From: Catellatospora sp. IY07-71 | Lineage (GTDB): Bacteria > Actinomycetota > Actinomycetes > Mycobacteriales > Micromonosporaceae | DNA length: 64,000 nt | NCBI RefSeq assembly: GCF_018326265.1 | Contig: NZ_AP023360.1 | Span: forward strand, 6,817,001-6,881,000 | Reading direction: 5' to 3' | Part shown: positions 14,219-24,433 of the stretch, in pieces | Layout of the letters: every line of letters begins with the position of its first letter | Position numbering within the stretch: the first letter of the stretch is position 1 | Translations under genes and position numbers: made by a program | The notes under the pieces: model-generated | Told to the model about the DNA's origin: nothing | The model's input: only the letters and a program-made list of their open reading frames with translations | The model's database searches: none

Positions 14219-14986
14219 ATGGTCATCCTGAGAACCGCCGCGGAGATCGCCGCGATGCGCGAGTCGGGCCGCATCGTCGCCCGCACCCTGTCCGCCGTCT
14301 CCGCCGCCGCCCGGCCGGGGGTACGCCTCGACGAACTCGACCTGCTGGCCGCCGACCTGATCGCGGCCGAAGGCGCCAAACCCTCGTTCCTCGGCTACCA
14401 CCCGCGCTGGGCGCCCATGCCCTACCCCGCCGTGGTGTGCCTGTCGGTGAACGACCACATCGTGCACGGCATCCCCAGCCGCCATGTGCTCGCCGAGGGC
14501 GACCTGCTCTCCGTCGACTGCGGTGCCCACCTCGACGGTTACCACGCCGACGCGGCGGTCACCGTCGGCGTCGGCGCGATCGACGAGCGTGCCCGCACGC
14601 TGAAGGAGACCGCGCAGCGCGCGCTCGCCGCGGGCATCGCCGCGGCCGTGCCGGGCAACCGGATCGGCGACATCTCCCACGCCGTCGAGACCGTCGCCCG
14701 CGCCGCCGGATACGGCCTGCCCGAGGGCATGGGCGGGCACGGCATCGGCACCCGGATGCACGAGGACCCCTCGGTGCCGAACACCGGCCGGCCAGGGCGC
14801 GGACTGCTGCTGCGCGAGGGTCTGGTCATCGCGATCGAGCCGATGCTGGTGGAGAGCGGCAGCGACGACTCCGTCACCGCCGCCGACGGCTGGACCATCC
14901 GCACGGCCGACGGCAGCCGCGCCGCGCACGCCGAACACACCATCGCAGTCACCACCGACGGTCCGGTCGTGCTCACCACTGCGTGA
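14219..14986 (+). CDS. map: Type I methionine aminopeptidase
   Basis: Removes N-terminal methionine from nascent proteins. The 255-residue pita-bread fold is complete, with all five metal ligands visible: Asp in SVDCGAHLDGYHADAAVTVG (two Asp), His in GGHGIGTRMHEDP, Glu in AIEPML and the final Glu in AAHAEHT. The substrate-binding His of FLGYHPRWAP is also present. There is no N-terminal extension. It is probably a stand-alone paralogue, since no ribosomal protein or secY/adk genes are adjacent. It is transcribed divergently from an XRE regulator and probably from a leaderless promoter. Confidence 0.93.
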   Translation: MVILRTAAEIAAMRESGRIVARTLSAVSAAARPGVRLDELDLLAADLIAAEGAKPSFLGYHPRWAPMPYPAVVCLSVNDHIVHGIPSRHVLAEGDLLSVDCGAHLDGYHADAAVTVGVGAIDERARTLKETAQRALAAGIAAAVPGNRIGDISHAVETVARAAGYGLPEGMGGHGIGTRMHEDPSVPNTGRPGRGLLLREGLVIAIEPMLVESGSDDSVTAADGWTIRTADGSRAAHAEHTIAVTTDGPVVLTTA

Positions 14987-15002
14987 GCACGGCATACTCC
15001 GT

Positions 15003-15031
15003 TTGGCCGACAAGTTTCCCTGGAGTAGCTT
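15003..15031 (+). promoter_or_regulatory. Possible promoter of the H1-like gene
   Basis: TTGGCC (15003-15008), a 17-bp spacer, then TAGCTT (15026-15031). The spacing is ideal but the boxes are only partial matches to the vegetative consensus. The transcript would have a 5' leader of about 70 nt ending in a strong GGAGG eight bases before ATG 15109. Confidence 0.35.
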
Positions 15032-15108
15032 GAGCGGACACTCTCACGCTGGACCGGCCATACGACGGGGTTAACCGCACCGGCGGAGTCAGGCTTGGAG
15101 GCCGCGAC

Positions 15109-15942
15109 ATGACTTCGTACACCGTCACCATCACGCCCGACGACCCGCAGCTCGCCGTCACCACCGTCCGCCTCGACCTGGTGGACGGCGCGGCGACCGT
15201 ACGCGAGCTGCGCCTGCAGCCCGGCAGCGGGGGCGGCCTGCGGCCCGGCGACCTGCCCGTCCTGGACCTCAACCAGCTCGTGCAGACCGTCATCGCCGCG
15301 ACCGGCGGCTCGGCGGCGGGCGGCGGCTCGGCAGCGGGCGGGCACCCGGCCCCGGCAGGGCGGACGGCGAAGGCGCAGTCCGCACCGGCTGAGGCCACGC
15401 AGACGGGCGCGGGCACCGCGAAGGCACCCGCGAGCCCGGCTCCGGCCAAGCCCAGCACGACCGGCCGGGTGCCGGCGAAGGCCGCCAAGGCGGCCCGAAC
15501 CGCGGTCGCCCCCGCCAAGGCAGGCCGGGCTCCGGCCAAGCGGACCGCCGCGTCGGCCGGGTCGGCGGCCGAGGGCCGGGCGAAGGCCGACGCCGCGATG
15601 GCGGCCGTCACCAAGGCGAGCGCCGGTAAGGCGTCGCCGCGTCGCGCCCCTCGGACGGCGGACAGCCCCGCGAAGGCCACCCCGGCGAAGGCGGCTTCCG
15701 CGAAGACCACCGCCCGCAGCGCGGCACCGGCGAAGGCCACCCGCAAGGCGGTCGCGCCCGAGGCGTCCGGCAACGGCGCCGCGGGCGGCAGCCGGACCTA
15801 CCGGCGGCTGCCGGACGACTTCGCCGAGGTGCTGCGCCAGGCCGGCAGCAGCGCCAGCGTCATCGCCGACCACTACGGCGTGCCGCGGCACACCGCGTAC
15901 GGCTGGATCCGCACCGCGGGCCGCAAGACCACCGCGTCCTGA
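15109..15942 (+). CDS. Histone H1-like protein with C-terminal HTH domain
   Basis: A 277-residue protein in three parts. Residues ~1-65 form a compact beta-rich domain with no motif I recognise (begins MTSYTVTITPDDPQLAVTTV). Residues ~66-225 are almost only Ala, Lys, Pro, Gly, Thr and Ser, with repeated AKA/PAKA motifs like the tails of histone H1 and actinobacterial HupS. Residues ~230-277 form a short HTH (FAEVLRQAGSSASVIADHYG then VPRHTAYGWIRTAG). This suggests a nucleoid-associated or chromatin-bridging protein whose HTH supplies sequence preference. GGAGG precedes the ATG by 8 bp. Codon bias is even along the tail, so it is not a frameshift artefact. Confidence 0.75.
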   Translation: MTSYTVTITPDDPQLAVTTVRLDLVDGAATVRELRLQPGSGGGLRPGDLPVLDLNQLVQTVIAATGGSAAGGGSAAGGHPAPAGRTAKAQSAPAEATQTGAGTAKAPASPAPAKPSTTGRVPAKAAKAARTAVAPAKAGRAPAKRTAASAGSAAEGRAKADAAMAAVTKASAGKASPRRAPRTADSPAKATPAKAASAKTTARSAAPAKATRKAVAPEASGNGAAGGSRTYRRLPDDFAEVLRQAGSSASVIADHYGVPRHTAYGWIRTAGRKTTAS

Positions 15943-16178
15943 CGCAACCGCATTAACGCCCGGCGGGTCGGGAAAGTCGTCTCCCGGACACTTCCCGCAC
16001 CCGCCGCCGGCGCCGAATGGTAATAGTGCACACAACCGCCGTGGCGTCGTTCACAGCGCGATCCCGTCCGCACTGTCCAGGCAGGACGCTGTAATACATC
16101 CGTCATCGAAGGACGGTCGCCGGACCTGCGGATATTCGAGAGAATTCACTCCCGCGCACCTTCCAGAATTCCTTTCAC

Positions 16179-16193
16179 GCGCCACCGTGGCGC
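16179..16193. promoter_or_regulatory. Perfect 15-bp palindrome upstream of the secreted hydrolase-like gene
   Basis: GCGCCAC-C-GTGGCGC (7-bp arms, 1-bp centre) lies 31 bp before the GTG at 16225. It could be an operator or a 5'-leader hairpin. The rest of the 282-bp gap from 15943 shows nothing else I can support. Confidence 0.4.
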
Positions 16194-16224
16194 TCCCGAA
16201 AGGGCATACCGCGAAGGACTGGAC

Positions 16225-17067
16225 GTGCGGAACACCACCAGGCGGCTCGCGATCACGGCGACGACCGTCGTCGCGTCGCTCGCGCTCACGCTGACCCCGG
16301 CCGCGGCCGACGGCCCACAGGCCGATTCCGTCCAGGGCAGCCAGCTCGCCGCGAGCGCGACCGAGCTGATCACCAACCTCGACGCGATCGGCTGGCCGGC
16401 CGAGCGCGCCTACAACTACTACGGCACGCCGAGCCGCATCACGTTCGGCACCCCGAACCAGCCGACCACGTACCTCAACGTGAGCCAGTGCGCCACGTTC
16501 GTGCGGCGGCTGCTGTCGCACCGGTTCGGCTGGGCGACCAGCTCGTGGTTCACCGCCGAGTTCGGCGACAGCTTCCCCGACAGCGCGGAGTTCCACGACG
16601 CGTTCGCCGCCGATCTCGACCGGACCGACGACATCCCCGACATCCGGGGCTTCGAGCTGCACGTCTTCCCGTACTTCAACCTGGAGGCCGGGGACATCAT
16701 GGCGATCCGGTACGACGACGGCTCGTCCGGCGGCAGCGGCCACATGGCGATCATCGGCACCGGCAGCCACCTGGTCGACGACACCCACCCGAGCTACCGC
16801 GAGTGGGCGATCCGGGTCATGGACAGCACGTCGTCGCCGCACGGCGTACCGGCCGCGGGCCACGACTTCCCGGACAGCCGCTTCTACCGCGACCCGCAGA
16901 CCGGCCGCTGGACCGAGGCCGACGGCGCCGGGACGGGCTGGATGTTCATCCGCACCGCCCGCGCCGACGGCGGGATCATCTCGCACAGCTGGAGCGCGGA
17001 CGACGACACCTGGCACACCGTGGCCGACCGCCCGATCAACTTCGGCCGGATCGACCTGTACGCCTGA
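16225..17067 (+). CDS. Secreted NlpC/P60- or CHAP-like cysteine hydrolase candidate
   Basis: A 280-residue exported protein. A signal peptide (RRLAITATTVVASLALTL, then TPAAADG with cleavage expected after AAA near residue 28) precedes a mature domain. That domain has LNVSQCATFVRRLLSHRF, with a possible nucleophilic Cys at the start of a helix, and GGSGHMAIIGTGSHL, with a His at the start of a beta strand. This order is typical of papain-like NlpC/P60 and CHAP peptidoglycan hydrolases or amidases. An aromatic/Asp-rich C-terminal region follows. The family match is by motif only. GTG start with GAAGGA upstream. Confidence 0.6.
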   Translation: MRNTTRRLAITATTVVASLALTLTPAAADGPQADSVQGSQLAASATELITNLDAIGWPAERAYNYYGTPSRITFGTPNQPTTYLNVSQCATFVRRLLSHRFGWATSSWFTAEFGDSFPDSAEFHDAFAADLDRTDDIPDIRGFELHVFPYFNLEAGDIMAIRYDDGSSGGSGHMAIIGTGSHLVDDTHPSYREWAIRVMDSTSSPHGVPAAGHDFPDSRFYRDPQTGRWTEADGAGTGWMFIRTARADGGIISHSWSADDDTWHTVADRPINFGRIDLYA

Positions 17068-17131: not shown

Positions 17132-17578
17132 TCACTCCTTGGCGCGCGGCGGCCTGCCCACCGGCATGATGGTGGCCAGCATCGTCGCGACGTGGCGCTC
17201 CTTGCCGTCCTTGACCGCGTACACATCGGAGCTCGCGGTCACCAGCCGCGACGACGCCCGGATCACCCGGCCGCGCCCGATCAGCCTGTCCCCGATCGCG
17301 GGGGCGAGCAGGTGCAGCTTGTACTCCGCGGTCACCACGTCGCCGACGACCGAGGCCGCGGCCCAGGCGCAGGCGTTGTCGGCCACGCACCCGACCACCG
17401 CGCCGTGCGCGAAGCCGTGGTGCTGGGTCAGCTCGGGGCGGATCGGCAGCTGCAGCTCGGCGATCCCCTTGCCGCACTCCAGGATCTCCGCGCCGAGCAG
17501 CGCGTTGAACGGGGACGCCTTGATGACCTCGCGCATGATCTCCAAGGTGGCGACAGGGCGGTCGTCGATCGGTTCCAT
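17132..17578 (-). CDS. PaaI-family hotdog thioesterase
   Basis: A 148-residue single hotdog-fold protein of the PaaI group, which hydrolyse acyl-CoA or acyl-carrier-protein thioesters. The central helix carries the family-type segment LTQHHGFAHGAVVGCVADNA. Later strands are VTAEYKLHLLAPAIGDRL and IRASSRLVTASSDVYAV. ATG 17578 is supported by GGAGGACCG just upstream on the minus strand. It is the last gene of the lipid operon, 40 bp after the FAAL stop, and may serve as a second release or editing thioesterase (inference). Confidence 0.85.
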   Translation of the reverse strand: MEPIDDRPVATLEIMREVIKASPFNALLGAEILECGKGIAELQLPIRPELTQHHGFAHGAVVGCVADNACAWAAASVVGDVVTAEYKLHLLAPAIGDRLIGRGRVIRASSRLVTASSDVYAVKDGKERHVATMLATIMPVGRPPRAKE

Positions 17579-17618
17579 CGGTCCTCCGGGCAGGTCGAGG
17601 GGCGGGTTTCGGGGCAGG

Positions 17619-19328
17619 TCAGGCCGTGACGGGCGCGGGCGGCGCCCATACGTCGAAGTCGGCGTCGAGGTAGCGGCGCCGGGCCGCGGCACGCATGATC
17701 TTGCCGCTGCTGGTCTTCTGCAGCTGGACGGGCTTGGTCAGCACGATGTCGCCGAGCGCCACGTCGTGCTCGCGGGTCACCGCGGCACGGATCGACGAGA
17801 CGACATCCATCCGGTCAGCTTCCCACAGCCGTTCGCGCCTGATCTCCTGGACCACGACCAGCCGTTCCCCGTCCGGTCCGGGGACCGAGAACGCGGCGCA
17901 GCCGCCCTCCTGCAGGGCCTCGTGCGCGGCCTGGACGGTGTACTCGATGTCCTGCGGGTAGTGGTTGCGGCCCCGAATGATGATCATGTCCTTGAGCCGG
18001 CCCACCACGTACAGCTCGCCGTCGAGCAGGAAACCCAGGTCTCCGGTACGCAGATACGCGTGCTCGTCGCCCGCGAGCCGGCCCTGGAACGCCGCCGCCG
18101 TGGCGACCTCGTTGCGCCAGTACCCCTGGGTGACGTTGCCGCCGCTGACCCAGATCTCGCCGATGTCCCCGTCGTCGCGCGGCAGCCCGGTCTCCGGGTC
18201 GACGATGCGCACCCGCTGCCCCGGCGCGACCGTGCCCGACCCCACGAGCGTCTGACCGCGGCCCGGCTCGCCAGGCTCGTAACGGCGGGCGGCGAGCGCG
18301 TCCACATCGGCCTCGCACGTCCGCGCACCCCGCCCGGCACCCGCACCGGCGACCATCAGCGTGGCCTCGGCGAGCCCGTAGCAGGGGAAGTGCGCCTCCG
18401 CGCGGAAGCCGACCGGCGCGAACGTCTCGGTGAACCGCCGCAGGGTCTCGTGCCGCACCGGCTCGGCGCCGTTGAACGCGATCCGCCAGCTGCTCAGGTC
18501 CACGTCCGGCAGGCCCTGCTTCTGGGCACGGGCCACGCACGCGTCGTAGGCGAAGTTCGGGCCGCCGCTGGTGTGCGCGCCGTATCGGGAGACGGCCGTC
18601 AGCCAGCGCAGCGGCCAGCGGATGAACACCAGCGGCGACATCAGGACGCTGGTCGAGCCGACGAAGAGCGGGTTGAGCACGTTCCCGATCAGGCCCTGGT
18701 CGTGGTAGAGCGGCGCCCAGCCGACGACGGTGGAGTCCGCGTCGTGGCCGAAGGCGCGGGTCATGTGCTCCTGGTTGGCGATGAGGTTGCCGTGGCTCAC
18801 CATCACGCCCTTGGGCGCGGCCGTCGAGCCGGACGTGTACTGCAGGAACGCGATGTCCCCGGGGTCGCACGCGATCGGCTCGAAACCGCCGCCGGGGGCC
18901 GGGTCCAGCCGGTCGATCTCCAGCCAGGCCGCCGATGCGGCCAGCTCCGGCAGGTTGCGGCGGGCCGACTCGGCCAGGGTGCTGTCGGTGAGCACCACGG
19001 CGGGCGCGCAGTCGGCGATGATGCTGAGCGTCGCGTCCTGGATGCGGTGCTTGCGGGGCCGGTTCACCGGCACGGCGATCACACGGGCCAGCAGGCAGCC
19101 GAAGTATCCGACGACGAAGTCGAGCCCCGGCGGGAACAGCAGCAGTGCCCGGTCGCCCGGCGCGCACAGCCCGGTCAGGTGCACGGCCACCGTGAGCGCC
19201 CGCCGGTGCAGCTCGCCGTAGGTGAGCACGGCGGCCTCGGTCTCGTCCTCGCCGAGGAAGACGTACGCCCGGCGGTCGGGCGTCCGTGCCGCGCGGGCGG
19301 CCAGGATCTCAGGAAACAACGGCGGCAC
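17619..19328 (-). CDS. Fatty acyl-AMP ligase (FAAL)
   Basis: A 569-residue adenylating enzyme that should activate a free fatty acid as acyl-adenylate and pass it to the neighbouring ACP. The P-loop motif LQYTSGSTAAPKG lies near residue 163. The FAAL-typical GWAPLYHDQGLIG follows, then FNGAEPV and CYGLAEATL. The hinge region is LRTGDLGFLLDGELYVVGRL, and the C-terminal catalytic Lys is likely in LQKTSSGKIMRAAARR. The PLYHDxGLIG motif and ACP neighbour favour FAAL over fatty acyl-CoA ligase. The GTG start overlaps the thioesterase stop by 20 bp. Confidence 0.92.
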   Translation of the reverse strand: MPPLFPEILAARAARTPDRRAYVFLGEDETEAAVLTYGELHRRALTVAVHLTGLCAPGDRALLLFPPGLDFVVGYFGCLLARVIAVPVNRPRKHRIQDATLSIIADCAPAVVLTDSTLAESARRNLPELAASAAWLEIDRLDPAPGGGFEPIACDPGDIAFLQYTSGSTAAPKGVMVSHGNLIANQEHMTRAFGHDADSTVVGWAPLYHDQGLIGNVLNPLFVGSTSVLMSPLVFIRWPLRWLTAVSRYGAHTSGGPNFAYDACVARAQKQGLPDVDLSSWRIAFNGAEPVRHETLRRFTETFAPVGFRAEAHFPCYGLAEATLMVAGAGAGRGARTCEADVDALAARRYEPGEPGRGQTLVGSGTVAPGQRVRIVDPETGLPRDDGDIGEIWVSGGNVTQGYWRNEVATAAAFQGRLAGDEHAYLRTGDLGFLLDGELYVVGRLKDMIIIRGRNHYPQDIEYTVQAAHEALQEGGCAAFSVPGPDGERLVVVQEIRRERLWEADRMDVVSSIRAAVTREHDVALGDIVLTKPVQLQKTSSGKIMRAAARRRYLDADFDVWAPPAPVTA

Positions 19329-20049
19329 GCGCGCGGATCCCTTCGGCGATCGTCGCCGCGATCGCGACCCGGTGCTGCTGGTGGAAGAAGTGGTCGCCGG
19401 AGAAGGCGTGCACCCGGAACGGGCCGTCGGTGTGCTCGCCCCAGGCGTGCACCTCGTCGGCGTCGACCACCGGGTCCTCGGTGCCGACGAACGCGTCGAC
19501 CGGGCAGCCGAGCCGGGGCAGCGGCTGGAAGACGTACTCCTCGGTCAGCTCCAGGTCCGCTTTGATCAGCGGAACGGCGTACCGCAGGAAGGATCTGCCG
19601 CCCGCGCCGCTGAGGGTGCCGCCGGAGGTCTCCAGCGCGGCGGCGAACTCGTCGTCGGGCAGGCGGTGGATCTGCGGGCGGCGGGCTGGCAGCTGCGGCG
19701 CGCGGCGTCCGGACAGGAACAGGTGCACCGGCGGGGTGCCTGCCGCGGTCAGGTGCCGGGCCAGCTCGAACGCGATGATCGCGCCCATGCTGTGCCCGTA
19801 GAGGGCCAGCGGCCGGTCCAGCTCCGCGCGCAGCTGTGCGGCCAGCCCGGTCACGGCCGCCGCGACGGTCCGCAGCGCGGGCAGCGCGGCCAGGTCCTCC
19901 CGGCCCGGCAGCTGCGCCCGCACCGGCAGCACCGACGGCGGGAACAGCCCGAGCCAGCGGCTGAACGACGCGGCGCCGCCGCCCGCGTGGGGCAGGCAGA
20001 GCAGCGCGACGGGCGCGTCCGACGGCTCGTAGCGCAGCCAGCCCTTCAC
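19309..20049 (-). CDS. Type II thioesterase
   Basis: A 246-residue alpha/beta hydrolase of the type II thioesterase family, which clear or release acyl chains from carrier proteins. The first motif LLCLPHAGGGAASFSRW gives the oxyanion region. The nucleophile Ser lies in LYGHSMGAIIAFEL, the Asp in FVGTEDPVVD and the His in FSGDHFFHQQH. It starts with GTG 20049, overlapping the P450 stop as GTGA. In this operon it may release the finished acyl product from the ACP or edit stalled chains. Confidence 0.9.
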   Translation of the reverse strand: MKGWLRYEPSDAPVALLCLPHAGGGAASFSRWLGLFPPSVLPVRAQLPGREDLAALPALRTVAAAVTGLAAQLRAELDRPLALYGHSMGAIIAFELARHLTAAGTPPVHLFLSGRRAPQLPARRPQIHRLPDDEFAAALETSGGTLSGAGGRSFLRYAVPLIKADLELTEEYVFQPLPRLGCPVDAFVGTEDPVVDADEVHAWGEHTDGPFRVHAFSGDHFFHQQHRVAIAATIAEGIRARAAVVS

Positions 20050-21281
20050 CGGGTGCCCCGCACCGTGACCGGCAGCGCCTTGAGGCCGCGGATGATGAAG
20101 CTGTGGTCCTGCCAGTCGAGGCCGCCCGAGCCCAGCTCGAAGCGCTCCGGCCGCTGACCGAGGGTCTCGAACACGATCGCGGCCTGCGCCTCGGCCAGCA
20201 GGCCGCCCAGGCAGCCGTGCATGCCGTGGCCGAAGGCCAGGTGCCGCCGGGCGTCGCGGGTGATGTCGAACTCGTCGGGCCGGGCGAAGACCTCCGGGTC
20301 GCGGTTGGCCGCGCCCAGGCACACCAGCACCTGGTCGCCCGGCGCGATGCGCTGGCCGCCGAGTTCGACCTCGCGGGTGGCCAGGCGCTTTGTCTGCTGC
20401 AGCGGGCAGTCGTAGCGCAGCGCCTCGTCGACCATGCGCGGCACCAGCTCGGGCTCGCGGCGCAGCAGCTCGTCCTGGTCCGGATGCTGGAGCAGGGCCA
20501 GCAGCGCGTTGCCGATGAGCGACTTGGTGGTCTCGTTGCCCGCGACGAAGCACATGACGCAGACGAAGACCAGCTCCTCGTCGGTGAGCCGGTCGCCGCC
20601 CGCGGTGGTCGTGGCCAGCAGCCGGCTGATCAGGTCGTCACCGGGCTCGGCGCGGCGGGCGGCGACGACCTCGTCCAGGGCCTTGGCGAAGGTGGCGACG
20701 ACCTCGCGGACGTGCGCGAAGTCCTCGCTCTTCATCAGTCCGGGTTCGAGCAGGAAGCGCACGTCGTGGGTCCACTGCCCGACCTGGGCGCGCAGGCTGT
20801 CCGGCAGCGCCATCCAGTCGCACATGACGTCGACGGGCAGCCGCGCGGCGACGTCGGCGACGAAGTCCCCGCCGCCGTGCCGCCACACCCCGTCGATCAG
20901 CTCCGCGGCACGGGCGGCGATGCGCGGGCGCAGCTGCGCCACGGCGGGCGCGGTGAAGACCCGGTTGACGATGCCGCGCAGCCGGGCGTGCTCCGGGTTG
21001 TCGGTGAAGACCAGCGACTTCTCGCCCAGCCGCTCGAGCTGGCCGACGTCGTCGAAGCCGAAGCGGCTCGCGTGCTGGCGGACCAGGGCCGGGATGAGCC
21101 CGGCGCCGAAGGTGCGGTCGTGCAGCACCTCGCGCACCTCGGCATGCCGGGTCAGCACCCACATGCCCATCGTCCGGTGCACCGGTTTCGTCTCGCGCAG
21201 CTGCCGGTACGCCGGATACGGGTCGCGCCGGAACTCGGCGCTGAACGGGTTGAACCGGGCCTGGGCCGCCTGCACGCTCAT
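20046..21281 (-). CDS. Cytochrome P450
   Basis: A 411-residue soluble bacterial P450. The I-helix oxygen-activation motif is FVAGNETT, the K-helix ExxR is EALR, and the heme-binding loop is AFGHGMHGCLGG with the axial Cys near residue 357. It is expected to hydroxylate or otherwise oxidise an acyl chain, plausibly as an acyl-ACP given the ACP and FAAL in the same operon (inference). No ferredoxin or reductase gene is adjacent. Its ATG overlaps the methyltransferase stop (ATGA), and its TGA overlaps the thioesterase GTG. Confidence 0.93.
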   Translation of the reverse strand: MSVQAAQARFNPFSAEFRRDPYPAYRQLRETKPVHRTMGMWVLTRHAEVREVLHDRTFGAGLIPALVRQHASRFGFDDVGQLERLGEKSLVFTDNPEHARLRGIVNRVFTAPAVAQLRPRIAARAAELIDGVWRHGGGDFVADVAARLPVDVMCDWMALPDSLRAQVGQWTHDVRFLLEPGLMKSEDFAHVREVVATFAKALDEVVAARRAEPGDDLISRLLATTTAGGDRLTDEELVFVCVMCFVAGNETTKSLIGNALLALLQHPDQDELLRREPELVPRMVDEALRYDCPLQQTKRLATREVELGGQRIAPGDQVLVCLGAANRDPEVFARPDEFDITRDARRHLAFGHGMHGCLGGLLAEAQAAIVFETLGQRPERFELGSGGLDWQDHSFIIRGLKALPVTVRGTR

Positions 21282-22186
21282 CGTGGCGTCACCCCTCGCG
21301 CGTCGAACAGCCTGGCGCTGTACGGCCGGAACACCAGGCGCAGCAGGCACAGCTTGCCCATCCGGAAGCCGAGCGCGGAGAGCTTGAGGTAGCGCGTGTA
21401 CCGGGCGACCGTCTCCGGCCCGGCCACCTCGACGGCCAGCTCGCGGTTGGCGCGCAGCCGCCGGCCCCACTCCTCCAGCGTGCGCGCGTAGTCCAGCCGC
21501 CCGTTGCCGACCGACTCGATCTCGAACACGCCCTCGGCGGCCTGCGCGATCTCGGCGAACGTGGGCAGGTCGGCGTTGGGGAAGATCTCCTGCTGGATGA
21601 AGCTGCTCGCGTCCGAGGGCGACATGTTCGCGTACGCGATGGTCTGCAGCGACAGGGCGCCGCCGTCGTGCAGCCAGCCGCGACAGCGCTCGAAGAACTC
21701 GCGGTAGATCCGCGCCTTCTCGGCCGGGGACTCGTCGGGCCGGGCGAAGTGCTCGAACGCGCCGATCGAGATGATGCCGTCGTACGGCTCGGCCGGCTGG
21801 TGGTGCATCCAGTTCTCGATGCGGACCTCGACTCCGGGCAGGCCCTGCGCCCGCACGTACGCCGCCTGCTCCTCGCTGAGGGTCAGCCCGACCGACTGAC
21901 CCACCCGGTGCTGCACCGCCAGCCGGTCCAGGATCGCGCCCCAGCCGCAGCCGATGTCGAGCACCCGCCGGGCGCCGTCAGCGCGCACCGCGTCCAGGTG
22001 GTGGCGCAGCTTGCGCTCCTGCGCCCGCTCCAGCGTGTCGTCTGGGCCGTCCCACAGCGCGCAGGAGTAGCTCAGCGAGTCGTCCAGCCAGAGCCGGTAG
22101 AAGTCGTTGCCCACGTCGTAGTGGTGGCGGATCGCGGCCGCCGCCTCGTCGGCGCGCTGCTCCTGCGTCTGCACCGCCACGGTCAC
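21278..22186 (-). CDS. SAM-dependent methyltransferase, cyclopropane-fatty-acid synthase type
   Basis: A 302-residue protein of the CFAS/mycolic-acid methyltransferase-like family. The N-terminal IRHHYDVGNDFYRLWLDDSL and SYSCALW segments are the family hallmark. The SAM motif VLDIGCGWGAILD and the EHFARP region follow (IISIGAFEHF). These enzymes transfer methylene or methyl to a double bond in a lipid chain. Here the substrate would logically be the bond made by the operon's desaturase, though the family is also used on non-lipid substrates. The GTG start overlaps the ACP stop (GTGA). Confidence 0.87.
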   Translation of the reverse strand: MTVAVQTQEQRADEAAAAIRHHYDVGNDFYRLWLDDSLSYSCALWDGPDDTLERAQERKLRHHLDAVRADGARRVLDIGCGWGAILDRLAVQHRVGQSVGLTLSEEQAAYVRAQGLPGVEVRIENWMHHQPAEPYDGIISIGAFEHFARPDESPAEKARIYREFFERCRGWLHDGGALSLQTIAYANMSPSDASSFIQQEIFPNADLPTFAEIAQAAEGVFEIESVGNGRLDYARTLEEWGRRLRANRELAVEVAGPETVARYTRYLKLSALGFRMGKLCLLRLVFRPYSARLFDARGVTPR

Positions 22187-22461
22187 TGCCCGCGTTGCTG
22201 CTGGATGGCCGTGTGCAGGTACGCGCTCACGGCGTTGAGGGTCGGGTTCTCGAACAGCGCCTCCGGCGGCAGGTCCACGCCGTAGCGCTCCTCGATGTCG
22301 ATCAGCAGCGACACGGCCAGCGCCGAGTCGAGGCCGAGGCGGTCGAAGTCGGCGGCCGGGTCCACGTCGGCCACCGGGATCTCCAGCAGTTCCGCCACGG
22401 CCTGGCGGCACCACGCGGTGAGGTCGTCCTGGGTCAGGCTGGCGATGTCGCTTGTGGTCAT
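22183..22461 (-). CDS. Acyl carrier protein
   Basis: A 92-residue stand-alone carrier protein with the phosphopantetheine attachment Ser in DRLGLDSALAVSLL. Helix III/IV is of PKS/NRPS type (YGVDLPPEALFENPTLNAVS) rather than the highly acidic FAS ACP type. It should be loaded by the FAAL and presented to the desaturase, methyltransferase and P450. AAGGAA lies upstream of the ATG, which is 10 bp after the desaturase stop. Its TGA overlaps the methyltransferase start. Confidence 0.93.
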   Translation of the reverse strand: MTTSDIASLTQDDLTAWCRQAVAELLEIPVADVDPAADFDRLGLDSALAVSLLIDIEERYGVDLPPEALFENPTLNAVSAYLHTAIQQQRGQ

Positions 22462-22471
22462 CTGCGGTTCC

Positions 22472-23473
22472 TTAGGCTGCGGCGTTGGCGGAGGCGGCAC
22501 GGCGGTCGAGGCGCTTGGCCACCCGCCGGTCCTTGGTCGGCAGTTTCAGATCGGTGGCCAGCCCGGCCACGGCGAGCATGCGGATCACCCAGTAGCCGGG
22601 GTCCAGCCGATACCAGTCCAGGCCGAACGAGGGCGACTCGGGGAACGCGTGGTGGTTGTTGTGCCACGATTCGCCGAGGGTGAGCAGGGCGAACACCCCG
22701 CCGTTGCGGCTGTTCTCGCGGGAGTCGTAGGGGCGGGTGCCGAACATGTGCAGGAAGGAGTTGATCGCCCAGACGATGTGCTCCAGGATGAAGATCCGCG
22801 CCAGGCCGCCCCAGAGCAGGCCGCTGACCGCGCCCTGCCAGCTTCCGTAGACCAGCCCGCCGATGACGCCCGGCAGGATCAGGCCGAGCACGACCCAGTA
22901 GTAGTAGAGCCGGGCGACCCGGATCAGCGGCTTGTTCTTCAGCAGGTCCGGTGCGTAGTGGACGATGTTCGGGTACTCGTGGCGGCGCATCCACAGGAAG
23001 TGGGAGTGCACCAGCCCGCGCAGCCGGCCCGTGAAGCCGCCGCCGGACAGGTTGGGCGAGTGCGGGTCGCCCTCGCGGTCGCTGCACTCGTGGTGGCGGC
23101 GGTGCAGCGCCACCCAGGAGACCATGCCGCCCTGCCCGGCCATCGAGCCGAGGATCGCCAGCGCCGCGGCCACCCAGGGCTTGGCCCGGAAGGTGCGGTG
23201 GGTGAACAGGCGGTGGTAGCCGACGGTCACCCCGATGCCGGTGAGCAGCCACATGCCGAACAGCAGCGCCAGCTCGACCGCGCCGAACGGGTGGACCCAC
23301 AGGAACGCGATCGCGGCCGCCATCCCGAAGAACGGAAGGACGTCGAAGAGTAGGAAGTGGCGCCTTTGCAGGCGGTGGATATAAGGATTGCTGATTGCTT
23401 TCTTACGGTGGTCCGCTCCGCTCTCGACCACGAAGTCGGCATTGTGGGTGGCGAACACCGAACCGTCCTGCGC
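22472..23473 (-). CDS. Membrane-bound acyl desaturase (di-iron, three His boxes)
   Basis: A 333-residue polytopic desaturase of the stearoyl-CoA desaturase superfamily. It has three canonical histidine boxes: HRLFTH (residues 88-93), HRRHH (125-129) and, near the C-terminus, HNNHH in ESWHNNHHAFP. Two hydrophobic hairpins surround them. It would introduce a double bond into a long-chain acyl group, here probably on the co-encoded ACP, as JamB/TtuB-type desaturases do in terminal-alkyne pathways (inference). The start is uncertain: ATG 23473 is preferred, with ATG 23485 and TTG 23527 upstream. First gene of the seven-gene operon. Confidence 0.88.
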   Translation of the reverse strand, partial: AQDGSVFATHNADFVVESGADHRKKAISNPYIHRLQRRHFLLFDVLPFFGMAAAIAFLWVHPFGAVELALLFGMWLLTGIGVTVGYHRLFTHRTFRAKPWVAAALAILGSMAGQGGMVSWVALHRRHHECSDREGDPHSPNLSGGGFTGRLRGLVHSHFLWMRRHEYPNIVHYAPDLLKNKPLIRVARLYYYWVVLGLILPGVIGGLVYGSWQGAVSGLLWGGLARIFILEHIVWAINSFLHMFGTRPYDSRENSRNGGVFALLTLGESWHNNHHAFPESPSFGLDWYRLDPGYWVIRMLAVAGLATDLKLPTKDRRVAKRLDRRAASANAAA

Positions 23474-23812
23474 CATCTCAACCCCCATCCTTGAGGCAGC
23501 CTTGAATATTGAGATGTTTGAGTGCAACAGGGAGCCATGCTAGGCGAGCCCTCGGGGCACCGCAAGACGGTGCACGGCCCTCAGCGTGCAAATATGTCGT
23601 GAACAAACTCTCACCGAGGACGTACAACCATAGACATCAGCTGATGGCATGCCTGGTCATCGTGCGTGTCGACGGTCCGCCGCCGAGGCACGGTAAACCA
23701 TCCGACAGCGACCGTCCACGTTGGACGCGTGATTCACGCAGAATTCACCGGAGCGGCGATCCGGGCGCTGGTTCCCCAGGCGATGAATCGTCACATGCGC
23801 ATACCGCGGGCA
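23474..23812. other. Intergenic region upstream of the lipid operon
   Basis: About 340 bp that must hold the promoter of the desaturase operon (minus strand). It is noticeably less GC-rich than the flanking genes. I could not pick one convincing -35/-10 pair, and no RNA gene, terminator hairpin or reading frame with coding bias is visible. Confidence 0.5.
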
Positions 23813-24433
23813 CTATTCGAAACGGGACGGGTCCCCGGCCCCGACGCGCAGGATCTCCGGCTCGCCCTCGGACAGGTCGACCACGGTGGTCGGCTCGGTG
23901 CCGCACTCCCCGGAGTCGATCACCGCGTCGACCAGGTGGTCGAGGCGTTCCTTGATCTCCCAGCCCTGCGTCATCGGCTCCTCGTCGCCGGGCAGCAGCA
24001 GCGTGCTGGAGACCAGCGGCTCGCCCAGCTCCTCCAGCAGCGCGAGCGCGACCGGGTGGTCGGGGATGCGCACCCCGACGGTGTGCTTCTTCGGGTGCAG
24101 CATGCGCCGGGGCACCTCGCGCAGCGCCGGCAGGATGAACGTGTACCGGCCCGGCGTCGCCGCCTTGACCAGCCGGAACACCGAGTTGTCCACCTTGACG
24201 AACTGGCCCAGCTGCGCGAAGTCGCGGCAGACCAGGGTGAAGTGGTGCCGCTCGTCCAGCTTCCGGATGTCGCGGATGCGGTCGAGCCCCGCCTTGTCGC
24301 TCAGCTTGCAGCCGAAGGCGAAACAGGAGTCGGTGGGGTAGGCGATCAGCCCGCCCTCGCGCACGATGTCGACGACCTGACGGATCGCACGGGGTTGCGG
24401 GTTGTCCGGGTGCACGTCGAAATACCTGGCCAC
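23813..24433 (-). CDS. yciO: YciO-type Sua5/YrdC/YwlC family protein
   Basis: A 206-residue protein with the Sua5/YrdC fold. Its sequence closely follows the YciO subgroup: it opens with FDVHPDNPQPRAIRQ, then GLIAYPTDSCFAFGCKL, HHFTLVCRD, the Lys/Arg patch VPRRMLHPKKHTVGVRIPDHP, and ends with TTVVDLSEGEPEILRVGAGD. YrdC/Sua5 make threonylcarbamoyl-AMP for tRNA t6A. YciO members bind nucleotides and RNA, but their physiological role is less settled. GTG start. It is probably monocistronic, and the essential tsaC copy is likely elsewhere. Confidence 0.85.
   Translation of the reverse strand: MARYFDVHPDNPQPRAIRQVVDIVREGGLIAYPTDSCFAFGCKLSDKAGLDRIRDIRKLDERHHFTLVCRDFAQLGQFVKVDNSVFRLVKAATPGRYTFILPALREVPRRMLHPKKHTVGVRIPDHPVALALLEELGEPLVSSTLLLPGDEEPMTQGWEIKERLDHLVDAVIDSGECGTEPTTVVDLSEGEPEILRVGAGDPSRFE

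Follow-up and report, generated by a model that had tools for sequence, protein, structure and literature searches.

The seven-gene operon on the minus strand of Catellatospora sp. IY07-71, at 23476-17132 of the window (by which we mean the whole 64-kb stretch of DNA analysed), is probably a conserved, transferable unit for acyl-ACP tailoring. A fatty acid would be loaded by a fatty acyl-AMP ligase (FAAL), desaturated, methylated, oxidised and released by a thioesterase, the likely product being a methyl-branched or cyclopropanated, oxygenated acid. Acyl-ACP tailoring with FAAL loading and thioesterase release was already proposed in the preliminary description of this DNA, and it is still the best reading; the same set of genes, in the same order, is found in several families and in a second phylum.

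Layout and distribution of the operon

The gene order is desaturase-ACP-CMAS/CFA-type methyltransferase (MT)-P450-type II thioesterase (TE II)-FAAL-PaaI thioesterase, and the Pfam matches of all seven genes exceed the gathering cut-offs. The SCD/DesC-like membrane fatty-acyl desaturase (23476-22472, 334 aa, PF00487, 3.5e-26), for which an in-frame ATG at 23488 is an alternative start, is separated by 10 bp from the stand-alone ACP (22461-22183, 92 aa, PF00550, 2.7e-19), with its Ser in a DSA motif. Then come the MT, a CMAS/CFA-family SAM methyltransferase with Gln181 at the bicarbonate-His site (22186-21278, 302 aa, PF02353, 2.4e-64), the P450, with GHGMHGC haem-ligand and AGNETT I-helix motifs (21281-20046, 411 aa, PF00067, 3.7e-28), and the RifR-like TE II, with a GHSMG nucleophile motif (20049-19309, 246 aa, PF00975, 4.5e-39). 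The FAAL (19328-17619, 569 aa) matches PF00501 with PF23024, as well as NCBIfam fatty-acid--AMP ligase models, and is followed after 40 bp by the PaaI-type hotdog thioesterase (17578-17132, 148 aa, PF03061, TIGR00369 of NCBIfam). The preliminary description had reported seven co-directional genes, and all are present, open and on one strand. The sequence also bears out the overlaps it had listed, of 4 bp at ACP/MT (GTGA), MT/P450 (ATGA) and P450/TE II (GTGA), and of 20 bp at TE II/FAAL. Its end at 17132 was exact, while the other, 23473, was 3 bp short of the desaturase start at 23476.

Compared with the close relative C. bangladeshensis, each gene is under purifying selection (dN/dS 0.05-0.23). 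The operon is accessory in Catellatospora, being found in 2 of 11 genomes, and its insertion site is variable. The genes that border it, at 15109-15942 and 23813-24433, flank this variable site, and in the window their membership of the pathway is unsupported.

To follow the operon in other genomes, P450 and MT were found to be specific markers. The FAAL was dropped as a marker, as it was swamped by FAALs at 38-50% identity, many of them in long multidomain frames: at E 1e-100, matches were found in 86 of the 300 genomes of the family, with more than 50% identity only in the window and its close relative. No other operon gene adjoins the short FAAL loci, save in C. bangladeshensis, for stray P450 matches and for one MT (L065). 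Among the FAAL loci of other phyla, none of 79 (80 loci minus C. bangladeshensis) has the full set; some combine FAAL with desaturase and ACP, or with P450, and an MT match occurs only in L148 (29%).

We compared 38 further loci, namely 17 from P450 matches, that of the sister species C. bangladeshensis, and 20 from g46, a genus of Mycobacteriales that is probably Nocardia. Order and strand are identical in all 38, as far as each contig extends. The P450 is seen in 38 of them, the MT in 37, and desaturase, ACP and FAAL in 36 each; gaps in L178, L182 and L207 fall at contig ends. The order recurs in Frankiaceae (MT in 16 of 35 genomes) and in g46 (40 of 150), both the names Frankiaceae (for f92) and Nocardia being given on the basis of kinship. 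It is also present on plasmids of Rhodococcus opacus and Pseudonocardia alni, and the full seven-gene order is found, gene for gene, on plasmid pCSC3H3 of Thalassospira, a marine alphaproteobacterium and thus of a second phylum, with 37-52% identity to the window over the six genes scored, the ACP being taken from annotation. With order and strand unchanged in 38 loci and in plasmid copies from three further genera, the operon is a conserved cassette, and not a chance cluster. The genome search proposed in the preliminary description thus finds the gene set in more than one family and in two phyla.

Reduced sets exist as well. Two Sphingobium plasmids carry autoinducer synthase-ACP-MT-FAAL (the ACP of Sphingobium TomMM15 is annotated as hypothetical only), and a FAAL-MT set adjoins KS genes in Polaromonas. 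Some of the genes seem to be damaged: matches to the L219 desaturase and to the L225 FAAL each fall in two frames, and the MT of genome G888 has two internal stops. In an unrooted tree, the window and C. bangladeshensis form a deep branch of their own (placement support 0.83), so that a recent transfer into Catellatospora from the sampled Frankiaceae or g46 genomes is not supported.

Predicted enzymes and the glutamine of the methyltransferase

By sequence, the FAAL is nearer to FAALs than to acyl-CoA ligases. Its best PDB matches are 7r7e (deposited as a polyketide synthase) and 3kxw, then FadD23, FadD32 and FadD28, ahead of CoA ligases, and fatty-acid--AMP ligases lead among the named single-enzyme NCBIfam models, at scores below the curated cut-offs. 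It would adenylate a free fatty acid and load the stand-alone ACP, whose gene is part of the same operon and whose DSA motif is invariant in an 18-row alignment. Loading by a FAAL is not universal, since one locus (L215, genome G1131) has the operon without it. The desaturase, which would introduce a double bond, has the His boxes HRLFTH, HRRHH and HNNHH, whose histidines are invariant in 32 aligned sequences (window included), and at E 0.01 it matches just two PDB entries, the acyl-CoA desaturases 4ymk and 4zyo. The P450, whose PDB matches include the P450 BioI entry 3ejb, would oxidise the chain.

TE II (PDB matches 6vap and RifR 3fla) and/or the PaaI-type enzyme (3e1e) would release or proofread the chain. 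At least one of the two is found in 29 of the 33 complete loci (PaaI only in 17, both in 7, TE II only in 5), one of the 7, L208, having only an 82-aa fragment of TE II; neither was found in the remaining 4 at the thresholds used. In three relatives (L212, L220, L221), the FAAL carries a PaaI-type domain as a C-terminal fusion. Leaving the sister species aside, PaaI copies are only 34-43% identical to that of the window, and the gene may therefore have been replaced independently.

The MT would pass a methyl group to the ACP-bound chain. It belongs to the CMAS family (PF02353 matched over positions 3-270 of 273, in the longer frame), and its AlphaFold2 model has a mean pLDDT of 89.2. Among PDB entries, cyclopropane and mycolate synthases match it best, the top score being 140 bits for the window protein and 149 for a Frankiaceae orthologue. 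In this family, the roles of the residues of the bicarbonate pocket, C, E, H, I and Y, are known from CmaA1 and E. coli Cfa. In 36 aligned sequences, C42, E145, Q181, I183 and Y233 are invariant, meaning that four of the five pocket residues are kept and that Gln replaces His in all 36. An LQTI motif with this Gln is present in 37 of 37 orthologues, and a second table of 19 FAAL-linked proteins, made up of 11 operon members and 8 further relatives, shows the Gln in all 19. The equivalent site is His in 5 of 5 PDB relatives among the matches listed (10 matched), and the genome's own CFA-type protein (L185) has C, E, H, I and Y at the corresponding positions of the alignment. The MT thus has family PF02353 and four pocket residues in common with the mycolate and CFA cyclopropane synthases CmaA2, PcaA, MmaA2 and Cfa, but differs by its Gln and by its setting in a FAAL/ACP operon. 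As judged from these alignments, Gln for the bicarbonate His across the whole FAAL-linked MT clade is a new feature. The preliminary description had the chain methylated or cyclopropanated; the second term has to be qualified, as the MT is without the bicarbonate-binding His of cyclopropane synthases, and the conserved Gln loosely favours a methyl transfer in which no ring is closed, or one that uses an altered base.

That these steps take place on the operon ACP, as well as their order, the chain length, the regiochemistry and the product, belongs to our reconstruction. The substrates of desaturase and P450 could instead be CoA esters, phospholipids or the acid after its release, so that clustering is not proof of one common ACP. 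LuxI enzymes take acyl-ACP donors, and the Sphingobium sets with their autoinducer synthase therefore fit an ACP-bound product. The likely product, a methyl-branched or cyclopropanated, oxygenated fatty acid, would be free in Catellatospora and passed to a partner synthase in other hosts. More tentatively, an acyl-ACP module that is widespread and passed on horizontally (FAAL, ACP, in most cases a desaturase, and a Gln-type CMAS MT) might make a methyl-branched or exo-methylene chain on a carrier protein, by a form of cyclopropane-synthase chemistry that does not depend on the bicarbonate His. Its terminators would differ: P450 and thioesterases in the window, a LuxI-type enzyme in Sphingobium, PUFA-type synthase or type I PKS in g46, Polaromonas and Pseudonocardia, NRPS in Thalassospira.

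Alternative readings and neighbouring synthases

Families of this desaturase and this MT modify bulk lipids, and the operon might be devoted to ordinary membrane-lipid modification, by desaturation and cyclopropane formation, its clustering with a FAAL meaning little. We regard this as most improbable, given the separate CFA-type protein with canonical His, the accessory status of the operon, and the fact that FAAL, ACP and thioesterases travel along across families and into a second phylum. O- and N-methyltransferases are also known inside the CMAS family (MmaA3, coclaurine N-methyltransferase), and the MT might in this way methylate the hydroxyl that the P450 would introduce, or some other acceptor. 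The loss of the bicarbonate His agrees with this, as does the presence of a plant coclaurine N-methyltransferase in the list of 11 PDB matches to the window MT. We find it rather unlikely, however, since the other four pocket residues are kept, Glu included, cyclopropane and mycolate synthases are the top PDB matches, and the MT is retained in the Sphingobium and Tistrella sets, which have no P450 in the operon (a divergent P450 lies near the Sphingobium set). Another alternative is a jamABC-like pathway to a terminal alkyne or polyyne, in which the desaturase would be an acetylenase on ACP-bound chains and the other genes would decorate the alkyne; the preliminary description had named FAAL, ACP and desaturase as the core of terminal-alkyne pathways (JamABC, TtuABC). 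The operon does share the trio of FAAL, stand-alone ACP and membrane desaturase with the jamABC/ttuABC alkyne cassettes, where the desaturase works on acyl-ACP according to the sections available of PMC8406139 and PMC11837247, and in 10 actinobacterial polyyne clusters a P450 replaces thioesterase and rubredoxin (PMC8406139, same sections). As proposed for the operon, the polyyne clusters for caryoynencin, protegencin, collimonin and cepacin follow a FAAL-ACP-desaturase-thioesterase route to a modified fatty acid, with a P450 in a subset, but they have three desaturases and a rubredoxin (PMC8406139, same sections). The operon, by contrast, includes an MT. It has a single desaturase, and no rubredoxin was recognised by motif in the window at 10-32 kb or in nine relatives; on these two grounds we reject membership of the polyyne clusters. 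Two loose matches to the rubredoxin motif in the window are, judged by eye, alternate frames of other genes. Compared to jamABC/ttuABC, the gene order is different (cyanobacterial loci such as L097 read FAAL-Des-ACP), and the operon adds MT, P450 and thioesterases, with no sign of alkyne formation; the MT is missing from one of the 38 loci, which ends at a contig edge, and the word methyltransferase is absent from PMC8406139. Operon desaturases also fall outside a group of five found near cyanobacterial FAALs (42-48% identity; unrooted tree, without the characterised JamB). Of the earlier comparison the shared trio stands, and an alkyne product is very unlikely.

The operon might also be the starter-unit or tailoring arm of a PUFA-type iterative synthase, a PKS or an NRPS, located elsewhere in the window genome, in which case the free acid would not be the product. 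This is a serious possibility, short of probable. In g46, a PUFA-type synthase is present in 35 of 36 operon-positive genomes tested (40 known) versus 12 of 20 operon-negative ones tested (110 known; Fisher p 0.0006), counts that ignore relatedness, and of the 21 genomes with both on one contig, 18 have it no more than 50 kb from the operon (for G1064, the nearest of three synthase matches was taken, not the best). A single MFS-type gene separates the two in G1120, G1103 and G1144, and in G1131 the synthase is about 7 kb away, on the opposite strand. Type I PKS genes adjoin the operon in some Frankiaceae and Pseudonocardia (upstream in Frankiaceae G986), and in Thalassospira an NRPS gene is found downstream. 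Both operon-positive Catellatospora genomes have a PUFA-type synthase, against 0 of 9 negatives (E 1e-80), but these two are close relatives. On the other side, the 64-kb window gave no KS or NRPS match (tblastn at 1e-3, with a PUFA-type synthase, two PKS and one KS-AT as queries); a PfaA/PfaC-like synthase, present in the cluster in some g46 relatives, is thus lacking there, and the nearest PUFA-type homologue is 3.3 Mb away, at 40% identity. The distance is 1.5 Mb in G767 and 0.27 Mb in G725, G1051 has the operon and no synthase match, and co-occurrence in Frankiaceae is not significant (11/12 versus 7/10, p 0.29). As 12 of the 20 negative g46 genomes have it, the synthase does not need the operon. 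The preliminary description, which had the pathway run without PKS or NRPS, was correct for the window, but not for the family, some members of which have PUFA-type, type I PKS or NRPS genes as neighbours. Since many relatives have synthase genes near by, the free acid of the tailoring pathway that we favour may not be the end product but an intermediate.

Relation to described pathways

No description of the gene set or of its product was found in the open-access literature searched, among the matches listed, in agreement with the earlier statement that no described pathway has exactly this set. In the FAAL-dependent natural product clusters tabulated in PMC11837247, a FAAL with its cognate ACP starts the pathway, as in the operon, and in the part of the table available no product was recognised that would need the operon gene set, judging by products and not by cluster genes. 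Many g46 genomes have, close to the operon, a synthase of the same broad type as in the actinobacterial secondary lipid (PUFA-type) clusters, such as Frankia type M (PMC3098273, in the portion available); the operon is nevertheless a separate unit, which in the window and in other genomes has no synthase beside it. For Nocardia cluster families, the available portion of PMC7413640 suggests that mono-modular PKS-like ketosynthases may modify fatty acids.

If our reading holds, a new family of small acyl-ACP tailoring pathways would join the known FAAL routes, with members in soil actinomycetes, among them probably the nitrogen-fixing Frankia, and in another phylum. Since the whole FAAL-linked clade carries Gln at that site, it would provide a natural test of the role of the bicarbonate His in cyclopropane synthases. 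Finally, the frequent nearness of the operon to PUFA-type synthases would offer a way into secondary-lipid clusters that have as yet no characterised product.

The seven-gene operon and its conservation

On the minus strand of the window, from 23476 to 17132, seven genes follow each other in the order desaturase, ACP, CMAS-type methyltransferase, P450, type II thioesterase, FAAL and PaaI-type thioesterase. The desaturase and ACP genes are separated by 10 bp and the FAAL and PaaI genes by 40 bp, while overlaps are found at the four other joints: GTGA (ACP/methyltransferase), ATGA (methyltransferase/P450), GTGA (P450/thioesterase) and 20 bp between the type II thioesterase and FAAL. All seven frames are open and contain the expected motifs, and the operon with overlapping joints announced in the preliminary description is borne out. 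An adjoining gene (16225-17067) encodes a 280-aa protein whose N-terminus suggests secretion, and for which no match was found in Pfam, NCBIfam or PHROGs.

A search with the P450 among 394 genomes of the class (E 1e-80) gave 18 matches including the window. The 17 others, at 62-72% identity, were found in a family that is probably Frankiaceae (f92, 16 matches) and a genus that is probably Nocardia (g46, one match). With the methyltransferase as query (E 1e-90), matches were obtained in 40 of 150 genomes of g46 and 16 of 35 genomes of f92; the f92 match in G888 contains two internal stops. We inspected 38 loci: those of the 17 P450 matches and of Catellatospora bangladeshensis (18 together), plus 20 from the 39 additional loci of g46. 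The preliminary description had proposed to look for the conserved set across genomes; the order desaturase-ACP-methyltransferase-P450-(type II thioesterase)-FAAL-(PaaI) and the strand were the same in 38 of 38, up to contig limits. The desaturase was detected in 36 loci, the ACP in 36, the methyltransferase in 37, the P450 in 38 and the FAAL in 36. The genes missing from loci L178, L182 and L207 fall at contig ends; in L215 (genome G1131), FAAL is absent between P450 and PaaI. Two-frame matches were found for the L219 desaturase and the L225 FAAL.

Among 33 complete loci, 17 had PaaI only, 7 both, 5 the type II enzyme only and 4 neither, the type II gene of L208 being an 82-aa fragment. The FAAL C-terminus carries a fused PaaI domain in L212, L220 and L221, and the PaaI-type thioesterase is therefore tied to the pathway. 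In 13 of the 33, an additional P450 was detected together with an alpha/beta hydrolase. The window PaaI (17132-17578) is nearer to that of Thalassospira (49%) than to the f92 and g46 ones (34-43%), whereas the opposite holds for the other scored genes.

Within Catellatospora, two genomes out of 11 carry a FAAL orthologue: that of the window and that of its nearest named record, C. bangladeshensis, whose proteins are 95-99% identical; a third genome has a FAAL at 45%. Between the two carriers, dN/dS of the seven genes is 0.05-0.23. The operon is flanked by a gene at 15109-15942 and a Sua5-like gene at 23813-24433. In six other Catellatospora genomes these two lie 0.13 to 4.4 kb apart, with different contents or almost none (about 130 bp in genome G004) between them, and no operon remnant was detected there by tblastn (1e-4). 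No equivalent of the 15109-15942 gene was found in the remaining three. Since carriers are few and the flanking genes are near neighbours without the operon in other genomes, it is accessory, at a variable site. Across several Catellatospora (loci L227-L232), this site differs in content and looks like a small hotspot.

The methyltransferase pocket

Aligned with cyclopropane synthases, the window methyltransferase keeps C42, E145, I183 and Y233, and has Gln181 where these enzymes have a His; we take these positions to form their bicarbonate pocket. Gln181 was invariant in 36 aligned sequences, and the LQTI motif was present in 37 of 37 orthologues. Among PDB relatives, His was found in all 5 displayed, of 10 matched. 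A second comparison covered 19 proteins linked to a FAAL, of which 11 belong to the operon and 8 do not (among the latter those of Sphingobium, Polaromonas, Tistrella and one genome of another genus, g45). Gln occupied the position in all 19, as against His in the window genome's own CFA-type protein, His in a Streptomyces relative (no FAAL match within 12 kb; AMP-binding and carrier-protein genes about 7 kb away) and Ser in a third, distant protein. On this alignment evidence, with few non-linked proteins compared, the FAAL-linked methyltransferases have a distinct pocket. Ser replaces C42 in the Thalassospira and both Sphingobium methyltransferases, and Phe replaces I183 in that of Thalassospira. 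The AlphaFold2 model of the window enzyme is confident (pLDDT 89.2).

Plasmid copies, reduced sets and partner synthases

Whole operons are carried by plasmids of Rhodococcus opacus (pRho-G13; identity to the window: desaturase 75%, ACP 61%, methyltransferase 67%, P450 63%, type II thioesterase 35%, FAAL 59%, PaaI 39%) and Pseudonocardia alni (pPaSha1; 48-70%). On pPaSha1 no PaaI directly follows FAAL, two being located elsewhere, and further along lie genes for acetyl-CoA carboxylase and for a type I PKS. The alphaproteobacterial plasmid pCSC3H3 of Thalassospira marina has all seven genes in identical order at 37-52% identity, the ACP, missed by tblastn, being known from annotation. A divergent LysR gene precedes this operon, and a dioxygenase, an aldolase, a LnmK-like protein and an NRPS follow it. 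Reduced sets were found in Polaromonas JS666 (FAAL, transposase, desaturase-ACP-methyltransferase, second desaturase, two KS genes), in Tistrella mobilis (desaturase-methyltransferase-FAAL, in an unannotated record) and on two Sphingobium plasmids (L262:10908-14788 and L264:10872-14633), where a LuxI-type autoinducer synthase (PF00765), a carrier-protein gene, the Gln-type methyltransferase and FAAL follow each other. In locus L226 (genome G690, g45), a FAAL gene lies immediately 3′ of a Gln-type methyltransferase, and three long ORFs further downstream resemble ABC exporters by eye; neither a desaturase nor a P450 of the operon type was matched there. The presence of this functional unit in two phyla and on several replicons argues for its horizontal spread.

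A PUFA-type synthase fragment (L212:2800-4662) was used as query in 89 genomes. It matched in 35 of 36 operon-positive g46 genomes versus 12 of 20 operon-negative ones tested (Fisher p 0.0006), and in 11 of 12 versus 7 of 10 in f92 (p 0.29). In Catellatospora (E 1e-80), the 2 positives, which are close relatives, had it versus 0 of 9 negatives (p 0.018). All these counts ignore relatedness. Synthase and operon share a contig in 21 g46 genomes: 18 have them 6.5-43 kb apart, and the distances in the other three are 442 kb, 567 kb and 2.8 Mb (for genome G1064, we used the closest among three hits). The run in genome G1120, mostly co-directional, begins with LysR, hydrolase, AMP ligase, FAD oxidoreductase and GDSL hydrolase; two genes for the synthase and one for an MFS transporter come next, followed by the operon, another P450 and a hydrolase; the AMP ligase/FAD oxidoreductase/synthase block recurs among the stretches compared, at varying distance and orientation. 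Near L215, the operon without FAAL, the opposite strand carries a PUFA-type synthase at a distance of about 7 kb. In the window genome, a homologue (G000:C1:3529594-3531279, about 14600-16300 of locus L255) is located 3.3 Mb away from the operon, and very long frames with AMP-binding matches are found some 10-18 kb from this homologue. We read the PUFA-type synthase as a frequent, non-obligatory partner of the operon.

The pathway had been supposed to work without PKS or NRPS. This holds in the 64-kb window, where tblastn with two PKS proteins, one KS-AT protein, one PUFA-type synthase and one NRPS matched nothing but the FAAL's own AMP-binding domain; it fails in some relatives, with the synthase often nearby in g46, the PKS on pPaSha1 and the NRPS on pCSC3H3.

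Predicted route and novelty

The most likely route, predicted from the gene content, is that FAAL would load a fatty acid onto the ACP, the desaturase would introduce an alkene, the methyltransferase would methylate it, the P450 would oxidise the chain and the thioesterases would serve in release or editing. Among the PDB matches of the P450 is 3ejb, P450 BioI complexed with ACP, a precedent that makes acyl-ACP plausible as P450 substrate. LuxI enzymes take acyl-ACP as well; this and the LuxI-linked sets support an ACP-bound product as the probable working form.

No description of the operon was found among the papers listed by full-text searches of the open-access literature, nor in the available part of a FAAL review (PMC11837247), in agreement with the initial statement that no described pathway with exactly this set was known. 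The parts belong to known kinds, the FAAL-ACP-desaturase logic being already known from alkynes and polyynes (PMC8406139, available part). What is new is the constant association of these parts with a P450 and a CMAS methyltransferase of the Gln type, as well as the breadth of the operon and the diversity of its terminal partners, among which the LuxI-linked sets of Sphingobium suggest an unusual methylated acyl signal.
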